Below the pieces are notes generated by a model that worked only from the letters and a program-made list of their open reading frames with translations, did no database searches and was not told the origin of the DNA. A stretch of 41,824 nt of DNA from a virus, in IMG/VR virus record IMGVR_UViG_3300037504_000736, positions 1-41,824 of that record. One strand, given 5' to 3'. Every line of letters starts with the position of its first letter. Positions within the stretch are counted from its first letter, which is position 1. Positions 34,313 through 38,375 of the stretch are shown here, piece by piece. The position numbers were made by a program, and so were the translations under genes.

Positions 34313-35545
34313 GTGGCGTTGAAGGCTCCATTCCCCTGGTTTGGCGGTAAGTCGCGGGTCGCTCGGTTGGTCTGGGAGCGGTTTGGGGCGGACGTGCGGA
34401 ATTACGTGGAGCCGTTTTTCGGGAGCGGTGCCGTGCTGTTGCGGCGGCCGGGCTTTGATGCGCAGCGGGCGCCGATTGAGACGATCAACGATTTGGATTG
34501 CCTCGTGGGGAATTTCTGGCGGGCGGTGCAGGTGGATCCGGAGGCGGTGGCGTACTGGGCGGATTCGCCGGTGAACGAGGCGGATCTGCATGCGCGGCAT
34601 CGGTGGCTGCATCGGGCGGTGCGGGAGGCCTGGGCGGAGATGGGGGGGATTGCGGCGTGGCGCGAGCGGCTGACGCATGACCCGGAGTTTTGCGACGTGC
34701 GGATCGCGGGCTGGTGGTGCTGGGGGTTGAGCTGCTGGATCGGTGACAACTGGTGTCGGATCGAGGAAGGCGCGGCGGCGGGGCGGGGCGTGCACTCGGC
34801 GGCGGGTGGTCAGAGTGGGCGGGGTATGGAGCGGATGCCGGAGTTGAAGCGGGACCGTGGATTGCATCAGGCGGCGGAGGACTACAGGACCGATGCCAAG
34901 CGACCAGTTTTGGCCTACAACGTCGGGCGGGGCGTGCATTCGGACGCGGTGCCAAGCAAGACGTTGTTGGGTGGCGGCCGCATCGGCAAGGGTGTTCACA
35001 GCGGCGGACTGGCCAAAGATGGCACGCAGACCGAGGTGTACTCGCGTGATCGACCGGCGGACGTGTGTTGGGAGCAGAAGCCATCGCTGAGCAAGGGCGG
35101 CGAGGGAATCCATCGGCCGCGCCTGGAAATCTTCACCTGGTTGCAGGCGCTGAGTACTCGGCTGCGGCGGGTGCGGGTGTGCTGCGGGGACTGGTCGCGG
35201 ATCTGCGGTCCGTCGCCGACGTTCAAGATCGGCATGACGGCGGTGTTTTTGGATCCGCCGTATGGCGCGAGCGATCGCGACAAGGTGTACAGCACCGACA
35301 GCCTGGCGGTGGCGTCGGAGGTGCGGGCGTGGTGCCTGTCAAACGGCGCCAACCCGAAGCTGCGCATTGCGCTGTGCGGCTATGCGGGTGAGGGGCACGA
35401 GGTTTTGGAGGACCAGGGCTGGTCGGTGGTCCACTGGAAGGCGGCCGGCGGGTACGCCGCGCGCAACAAGACGAATCAGAATGCGGGCCGGGAGCGGATC
35501 TGGTTTTCGCCGGCGTGTCTGGACCCGCGGCCGACGTTGTTTTGA
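34313..35545 (+). CDS. D12-class N6-adenine DNA methyltransferase
   Basis: A 410-residue protein, GTG 34313 with GGAGG upstream. N-terminal FPWFGGKSRV and NYVEPFFGSGAVLL form the SAM-binding part, and DPPYGASD (314-321) the catalytic motif IV of D12 (Dam-like) enzymes. The C-terminus has the phage-typical VLEDQGWSVVHWKAAGGY and RERIWFSP. Between them is a long Gly-rich insert with near-repeats GRGVHSAAGG, GRGVHSDAVP and GKGVHSGGLA, presumed target recognition or linker. It methylates adenine in an unknown site, perhaps protecting phage DNA. Confidence 0.88.
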   Translation: MALKAPFPWFGGKSRVARLVWERFGADVRNYVEPFFGSGAVLLRRPGFDAQRAPIETINDLDCLVGNFWRAVQVDPEAVAYWADSPVNEADLHARHRWLHRAVREAWAEMGGIAAWRERLTHDPEFCDVRIAGWWCWGLSCWIGDNWCRIEEGAAAGRGVHSAAGGQSGRGMERMPELKRDRGLHQAAEDYRTDAKRPVLAYNVGRGVHSDAVPSKTLLGGGRIGKGVHSGGLAKDGTQTEVYSRDRPADVCWEQKPSLSKGGEGIHRPRLEIFTWLQALSTRLRRVRVCCGDWSRICGPSPTFKIGMTAVFLDPPYGASDRDKVYSTDSLAVASEVRAWCLSNGANPKLRIALCGYAGEGHEVLEDQGWSVVHWKAAGGYAARNKTNQNAGRERIWFSPACLDPRPTLF

Positions 35546-36973: not shown

Positions 36974-37195
36974 GTGAACAAGCAAACGCTCTACAAAGCC
37001 GAACGAGAACAGGCCGAGGTGCGCCTCTTGCTGAGACAGACCGAGGACGCGGAATACCAGGCATGGTGCAAGCGATATCGAGAGGTCCAGACCATCAAGA
37101 CCGACAAGGGACTGCGCGAACGTGTCGAGCTACTGGAAGACGAACTGGAATGGATGCGTGGACGGAGGTCTCAGGATGATCCTCTACAACGATAG
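36974..37195 (+). CDS. small coiled-coil protein, 73 aa
   Basis: A 73-residue protein starting GTG 36974. Highly charged and helical, MNKQTLYKAEREQAEVRLLL then LRERVELLEDELEWMRGRRS, so a coiled coil is likely. It overlaps the methyltransferase start by 20 bases. The ribosome-binding site is weak. It is separated from the PAPS-like gene by 71 bases in which I see nothing notable. The function is unknown. Confidence 0.55.
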   Translation: MNKQTLYKAEREQAEVRLLLRQTEDAEYQAWCKRYREVQTIKTDKGLRERVELLEDELEWMRGRRSQDDPLQR

Positions 37196-38273
37196 CGACC
37201 GCAAAGTCTGCGCTTGGATCACCGAGATTATAAGGGCAGGACACCTGCCGGAAGGACTGGTTGATGAGCGACCAATCGAGGAACTCAGCCCGGACGACTG
37301 CGAAGGCACATCGCATTTTTTCTGCGGCGTCGGAGGCTGGCCGCTCGCCTTGGCGCTTGCCGGATGGCCAGACAGTATTCCCGTTTGGACGGGATCTTGT
37401 CCCTGTCAGCCGTTCAGCGTCGCCGGGAAACGCAAGGGCACAAAAGACGTGCGACACGTCTGGCCAATCTGGCGCGAACTTATTGAGCACTGCACACCTC
37501 CAATCATCTTTGGAGAGCAGGTTGCGTCAAAGGATGGGCGCGCTTGGCTCTGCGGAGTACGTGATGACTTGGAAGCATTGGGATATGCAGTCGGGGCCGC
37601 CGATCTGTGCGCTGCGGGCGCGGGCGAGGAAGCCGAAGGACGGATTGTGCGTGGCAATCAGATTACTTACGAGCGAATCATCTGCGGAGCGCCACACATC
37701 CGACAACGGCTGTACTGGATGGCCTACGCCGGATGCGAATGCGATGAACGACGGAGAGACGCTGACAAGCTGGCAGGATCGGGCCAAGCAACTGAAGAAG
37801 AAGCACGGCAACGGCAACGGCGCCGGGATGCCAATTGCGATAGCTGCGCAGTTGGCGGGATGGCCTACGACGAACGCGAGGGGAGACGACTGGAGCCCCA
37901 ACGCAAGCAAGAAGAGCATGAGCGGCCACATGCTGGGTGCTGTAGCATGCTTGGCGGGGTGGGTGACGTGCTCGGCGAGGGACCACAAAGACAGCGCTGG
38001 AATGGCGACAGAAGCGACCAACCCAGACGGCAGCCGTCGCAAGCGCATCGACCAGCTACCTCGCCAAGCGCGCTTGGCCAATGGTCCGACTTCGACATCA
38101 TCCCCTGTCGAGACGACAAAGCCCGGCGCGTTGAATCCGGCACATTCCCGCTGGCTCATGGGGTTCCCGCCCGAGTGGTGCGACTGCGCGGTTACGGCAA
38201 TGCAATCGTTCCCCCGCTCGCAGTCGAATTTATCAAAGCGTCCCTTGAGGCATTGCGTGAGGCTGGGGGGTAG
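37176..38273 (+). CDS. C5-cytosine DNA methyltransferase (frame A of a dual-coding region)
   Basis: A 365-residue protein from ATG 37176 with GGAGG seven bases upstream. [18 protein letters not shown] is motif [16 protein letters not shown] holds the catalytic Cys77 in motif IV (Pro-Cys-Gln). IIFGEQVAS and [17 protein letters not shown] continue the family. [20 protein letters not shown] and [13 protein letters not shown] close it. The middle (about 200-290) is a charged, low-complexity spacer. From 37264 to its end the DNA is also open and family-like in frame +1. It methylates cytosine in an unknown target, for protection or regulation. Confidence 0.88.
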
Positions 38274-38277
38274 CTGA
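37264..38277 (+). CDS. overlapping methyltransferase-associated protein (frame B of a dual-coding region)
   Basis: A 337-residue open frame, +1 relative to the methyltransferase and lying almost entirely inside it. ATG 37264 has its own Shine-Dalgarno (GGAAGGA at 37250-37256, seven bases away). The protein is not noise-like. [20 protein letters not shown] and [14 protein letters not shown], then repeated GW(P/V)T units, [30 protein letters not shown] and [18 protein letters not shown] resemble a family I recall from phage genomes, annotated as methyltransferase or hypothetical. Its stop overlaps the next ATG. Its function may be to modulate or target the methyltransferase; that is inference. 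Confidence 0.65.
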
Positions 38278-38375
38278 TGGCAGACCACGGACTATTCGGA
38301 CAATCAGATGCGCCTGCAGTGGCTCAGATGGAGCCACTGACGAACTGCATGACTACTAGACAGGCGCGCCGATGA
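38277..38375 (+). CDS. micro-protein, 32 aa, before the primase
   Basis: A 32-residue frame, ATG 38277 with GGGGGG six bases upstream. It overlaps the frame B stop (TGATG) and the primase start (ATGA). [20 protein letters not shown] then TNCMTTRQARR. The tight coupling at both ends supports translation. It could simply carry ribosomes into the primase gene, which has no strong ribosome-binding site of its own. Confidence 0.45.
   Translation: MADHGLFGQSDAPAVAQMEPLTNCMTTRQARR

Follow-up and report, generated by a model that had tools for sequence, protein, structure and literature searches.

The C5-cytosine methyltransferases of the Bacillus phages SPR, phi3T and rho11s are multispecific, single-chain enzymes that carry several short recognition modules in tandem. 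In the two-polypeptide enzyme M.EcoHK31I (YGGCCR), the coding sequence of the beta subunit lies inside the alpha gene, in a different frame. The division of the conserved motifs between two chains has been described for this enzyme, in which the large subunit contains motifs I–VIII and X along with a predicted target-recognition domain (TRD) and the small subunit only motif IX, and also for the two-subunit enzyme M.AquI (CYCGRG), in which motifs IX–X are found in the small subunit (PMC3404938). A passage of PMC12707154 cites Trautner 1996 on the multispecific C5-methyltransferases of Bacillus phages.

Here we examined two overlapping reading frames in a window of 41,824 nucleotides of viral DNA (IMG/VR virus record IMGVR_UViG_3300037504_000736, positions 1 to 41,824). 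The two frames very probably encode the subunits of one C5-cytosine methyltransferase, alpha being the catalytic subunit and beta contributing target recognition and motif IX. Tandem exchangeable modules are shared with SPR, phi3T and rho11s, but those enzymes carry other modules in a single chain and frame, whereas here the modules are located in the second, overlapping frame. Judged by motif layout and by the nested frame, the pair is best read as an M.EcoHK31I-type split enzyme, with motifs I–VIII and X in the large chain and motif IX confined to the small chain. It differs from M.EcoHK31I in that the phage beta bears exchangeable modules, up to several of them in an array, and in that recognition is assigned to beta and not, as predicted for M.EcoHK31I, to the large subunit (PMC3404938). 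M.AquI is likewise split after motif VIII, with the recognition region and motif IX in the second chain, but its motif X lies in the small subunit (PMC3404938) and not in alpha as observed here.

The first-pass annotation of this DNA had proposed the two frames, a Shine-Dalgarno sequence for the second and an opening of 337 codons, all of which were confirmed on the sequence:

37176..38273, plus strand: alpha (frame A), putative catalytic subunit of the C5-cytosine methyltransferase, 365 aa, stop codon TAG
37264..38277, plus strand: beta (frame B), nested and in +1 relative to alpha, 337 aa, stop codon TGA
37250..37256, plus strand: candidate Shine-Dalgarno sequence of beta, GGAAGGA, 7 bases 5' of the ATG at 37264

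The end of beta was also found to overlap the next start, as had been reported, since its TGA runs into the ATG at 38277 that opens a 32-aa ORF (38277-38375). This small ORF starts within the beta stop (TGATG) and ends within the start of a primase gene (CGATGA), and the two overlaps suggest translational coupling. Immediately 5' of alpha and overlapping its start is a 73-aa ORF (36974-37195) without a PHROG match. Elsewhere in the window, a gene for a D12-class adenine methyltransferase (34313-35545) contains repeated GVHS-like stretches in the middle of the protein, and its match to PF02086 is limited to the N-terminal part.

In the window sequence, the +1 frame of alpha contains 0 stops and the +2 frame 14. 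The +1 frame was equally free of stops in 1344 of 20000 synonymous shuffles (6.7%; shuffle mean of 2.1 stops) and in 92 of 20000 codon permutations (permutation mean of 4.4 stops). An open beta frame in a single sequence is by itself moderate evidence of coding and too weak as proof; with 6.7% of synonymous shuffles also open, the openness of frame B was dropped as a stand-alone argument, although the codon permutations and the 14 stops in +2 do favour coding.

Alpha matched PF00145 in Pfam (2e-8, 34.4 bits against a cut-off of 22) and family 363 in PHROG (2e-56), and carries the C5-methyltransferase motifs I, IV (PCQ), VIII and X and a putative motif VI, which bears out the earlier assignment of frame A to this class of enzymes. 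The conserved positions, compared over 66 alphas, were located as follows:

37314..37340, plus strand: alpha motif with F49, G51, G53 and W55 invariant in 66 alphas
37392..37418, plus strand: alpha motif with the catalytic Cys; P76, C77 and Q78 invariant in 66 alphas
37509..37529, plus strand: putative alpha motif VI, FGEQVAS; G113, E114, Q115 and V116 invariant in 66 alphas
37695..37718, plus strand: alpha motif with P173, H174, R176 and R178 invariant in 66 alphas
38187..38216, plus strand: alpha motif with G341, N342, A343 and I344 at least 90% conserved in 66 alphas

Motif VI reads EQV instead of ENV in 66 of 66 alphas, with the Glu retained and the Asn replaced by Gln. The C-terminal motif (38187..38216) was in the alpha frame in 163 of 169 loci; motif IX was not detected within the alpha chain and is encoded in +1, that is in beta, in 163 of the 169. 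The AF2 model of alpha resembled M.HaeIII and M.HhaI by fold comparison. Its confidence was high for most of the N-terminal catalytic part and for the C-terminal helix, but pLDDT fell below 50 at residues 220-300, a region covering most of the module stretch. One alpha, that of EBPR siphovirus 2 (L195, 1492-3315), has an intein-like interruption inside motif IV (SCPC...CQPF), past which the beta frame picks up again intact.

Beta matched PHROG family 1008 (2e-25), which is labelled 'DNA methyltransferase', and tblastn detected it in 191 phage records, in agreement with the earlier statement that motifs of frame B recur in phage proteins. A Pfam search returned no family for beta and sequence searches no relative in the PDB. 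The AF2 model was weak (mean pLDDT of 63.6), apart from the core block, which reached 74-89 over most of its length. Fold evidence for beta as a TRD was sought by comparing this model with PDB folds, which gave no significant match, and by comparing the beta profile with solved structures, which gave none either, so that a TRD fold is unsupported by structure. The parts of beta were delimited as follows:

37486..37629, plus strand: beta core block, beta 75-122 = alpha 105-152, apparently dual-coding
37717..37857, plus strand: candidate TRD module 1, ending in AQLA; module family present in 7 loci
37858..37956, plus strand: candidate TRD module 2, ending in VACLA; no close relative among the sampled modules (family of 1)
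37957..38079, plus strand: candidate TRD module 3, ending in QARLA; commonest family, 32 loci
38131..38187, plus strand: beta motif IX; L290, P292, L298 and W305 invariant in 74 betas

At the C-terminus of beta is a stretch that, judged by eye, looks like motif IX of C5-methyltransferases. A profile built from 74 betas was aligned with one built from the C-terminal halves of enzymes of the single-chain and M.AquI types (hhalign, 97%, E 1e-10), the match spanning both the modules and motif IX; pairwise BLAST recovered only the motif IX stretch of the same relation (E 0.001). Beta is therefore best read, at the level of profiles, as the displaced half of a methyltransferase, comprising the TRD and motif IX. 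The other way to view a protein that sits nested in +1 and has no Pfam hit and no PDB match by sequence or fold is as a de novo overprinted product of the methyltransferase gene, be it a regulator, an inhibitor or a separate anti-restriction factor. We consider this very improbable, because the beta profile matches the TRD-IX half of single-chain methyltransferases; motif IX is also undetectable in alpha, and several alpha groups that are deeply separated in the tree include the nested form. The first-pass annotation had left open whether frame B was a partner or a regulator of the methyltransferase; it is probably a partner, and the profile match speaks against a regulator or an unrelated protein.

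Between the beta core and motif IX are located mostly 1-4 modules per beta, with a median of 36 aa, each of which opens with GW-x-TP ("GWPTP" modules). The 460 modules collected fell into 173 families, and a given family was found at various positions of the array with varying neighbours. Module 1 of the window recurs in L002, L003, L015, L024 and L026. In 26 pairs of betas, the N-terminal halves were at least 85% identical yet the arrays differed. On the strength of the profile match to the TRD-IX part of single-chain enzymes, the GW-x-TP pieces are interpreted as putative recognition modules, each presumably with its own target. In L026 (910-1807), the catalytic motifs are followed in the same frame by a module and then a stop; this locus is probably a frameshifted relative of L191.

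Searches of 50,697 phage records gave 191 tblastn positives for beta and 274 for alpha, and few plasmid records (13) carried beta. The loci were collected through similarity searches and do not sample phages at random. In all 180 loci carrying both parts, the conserved beta block was in +1 of alpha. Loci with frame A kept and frame B lost, which the first-pass annotation had named as evidence against its proposal, were not seen: the +1 beta block was present in 79 of 79 loci newly fetched through alpha motifs IV/VI only, a sample not selected on beta. Both frames were open through motif IX in 169 of the 180. The remainder mostly reflect contig ends, frameshifts or single stops, as in the apparent exceptions L035, L038, L053 and L076 (which run off contig ends), L013/L014 and L037 (frameshift) and L052/L068/L172 (stop in alpha); L087 has a divergent motif IX that is still in +1. 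Motif IX was in +1 and motif X in the frame of alpha in 163 of 169 loci, and 8 of the 13 phage records inspected showed this arrangement as well. The nested form extends to phages of Firmicutes, Proteobacteria and Actinobacteria with quite different alphas. Across so many sequences, chance openness would not suffice as an explanation. In Acidovorax phage Alfacinha3 (L191, 1409-2575) it is the beta frame that is annotated as a cytosine-specific methyltransferase, and the catalytic alpha frame is unannotated.

The effect of the overlap on selection was followed along the gene. Synonymous codons of alpha were conserved at ~1.0-1.2 times expectation over residues 1-82 and at 1.6-2.5 times over residues 99-154, the beta core, which is the reduced synonymous change that had been suggested as a check. 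Mismatches were then counted by alpha codon position 1/2/3 in ~57-81 disjoint pairs (6 in the short tail). The rates were.176/.129/.518 at the non-overlapping alpha start,.154/.140/.454 in the beta N-terminus,.227/.155/.307 in the beta core,.393/.159/.125 in the modules and.197/.132/.233 in the motif IX stretch. Position 1 of alpha is position 3 of beta, and therefore the module stretch is under selection as beta almost alone, with alpha as a passenger, a view with which the low AF2 confidence of alpha residues 220-300 agrees. By the same measure, the first part of the gene is selected almost only as alpha, and the block between motifs VI and VIII and the end as both. The earlier proposal that both frames are selected thus stands, but not along the whole kilobase. 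These patterns also bear on whether alpha might be the sole protein product, its +1 frame being kept open through GC content or the composition of alpha, by chance or mutational bias. For the window alone such openness arises in the 6.7% of shuffles mentioned above; against it, substitutions in the module stretch track beta codons in 98% of independent pairs, synonymous sites of alpha are conserved in the beta core and the +2 frame is closed by its 14 stops, and we regard this possibility as extremely improbable.

A start codon for beta between the last stop and the core was present in 169 of the 169 loci open in both frames, while 36% of the synonymous shuffles of those loci had none before the core. 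The best Shine-Dalgarno match upstream of beta starts averaged 4.6 nt against 1.9 nt in the shuffles. As a longer open stretch itself yields more starts, these comparisons are supportive and not an independent proof. The best pairs of Shine-Dalgarno sequence and start were mostly at alpha residues 28-38 (interquartile range across loci), and the ATG at 37264 with its GGAAGGA, plausible as the start, agrees with this zone. The earlier choice of 37264 is upheld to that extent, but the exact codon is not conserved: a start triplet occupies the equivalent position in 65 of 171 loci and GAT is not enriched there, and a fixed, conserved start at alpha Asp30 was accordingly rejected. The first ~70 residues of beta are under little constraint, and for this reason its exact start is uncertain. 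The existence of single-chain relatives and the overlap of the frames over most of the gene could also be accommodated if alpha and beta formed one polypeptide through a programmed +1 shift. This is very unlikely, given that beta start codons and Shine-Dalgarno matches exceed those of synonymous shuffles over 169 loci and that a second shift would be needed to reach motif X, which is located in the alpha frame.

Two chains remain our reading, and their likely history can be considered from relatives of other architectures. The actinophage proteins ShiLan gp70 and MelBins gp5 resemble beta in having PTP modules followed by the same kind of motif IX, but they are single chains in which motifs IX and X are in frame with motifs I-VIII and the recognition part is fused with motif X, which here are split. 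In a set of 80 loci drawn by the ShiLan C-terminus, 33 were single-chain and 38 encoded both motif IX and motif X in +1, as in the M.AquI form, relatives of the latter type including Anthony and GordDuk1. One chain, the M.AquI-type split and the nested split make up a natural series. On the alpha tree, a quick tree of modest support, the nested form requires 2 changes, and 7 are needed for all three forms taken together. Because all three architectures exist today, the most likely origin would be from a one-chain gene via two frameshifts, one 5' of the TRD and the other separating motif IX from motif X, an order of events that we infer and that comes close to the frame-slip fixed in both forms suggested by the first-pass annotation. 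The loci of ShiLan (L197, 1321-2490) and MelBins (L189, 1525-3012) contain beta-like text and PTP modules in +1, 5' of the modules that are in frame, which looks like the re-fusion of a split ancestor. Since this text is retained, changes in the reverse direction probably occurred too. The HNH insertion of ShiLan (PMC11855218) was considered as a parallel, since there too a phage methylase contains a protein out of frame, but was set aside as an inserted homing endonuclease.

We propose that alpha binds S-adenosylmethionine and catalyses the transfer with motifs I to VIII and X. Beta, presumably translated from a start inside the alpha gene in +1, would form a physical complex with alpha and provide the part of the small domain that alpha lacks, namely the modules and then motif IX. 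Alpha would read the module stretch as an unstructured linker from motif VIII to motif X. Most likely, the modules would specify the sites at which the pair methylates the phage DNA, and this methylation would shield the DNA from host restriction enzymes. We also lean, if only slightly, towards a broader picture of a widespread phage anti-restriction enzyme with multispecific methylation, whose second frame is an array of swappable cassettes gained, lost and shuffled against an indifferent linker in alpha, and whose three forms interconvert by frameshifts.

The principle of the split enzyme was already known, and the same nested pair is present in E. coli phage K1ind2, where ORF29 (C-specific methylase) and ORF28 (Mte8-like protein) are both annotated in GenBank, the record giving no explanation for the second ORF. 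The broad distribution among phages and the shuffling of recognition modules in the second frame appear to be new. Our literature search found no description of either, and older or closed papers may contain one; among the literature naming EcoHK31I, none had a phage topic by title.

The proposed enzyme would account for a large set of phage ORFs that overlap one another; the annotation is mostly that of a single methylase or of a hypothetical protein, and at times the wrong frame has been chosen. The enzyme would also provide a clear case of overlapping genes that are two halves of one enzyme and not an old gene with a new one, with selection handed from frame to frame along the gene. The three architectures would offer a natural series for testing gene splitting by frameshift and the modules, should they prove to be separable units of target recognition, would constitute a natural collection of parts with which to study phage evasion of restriction.
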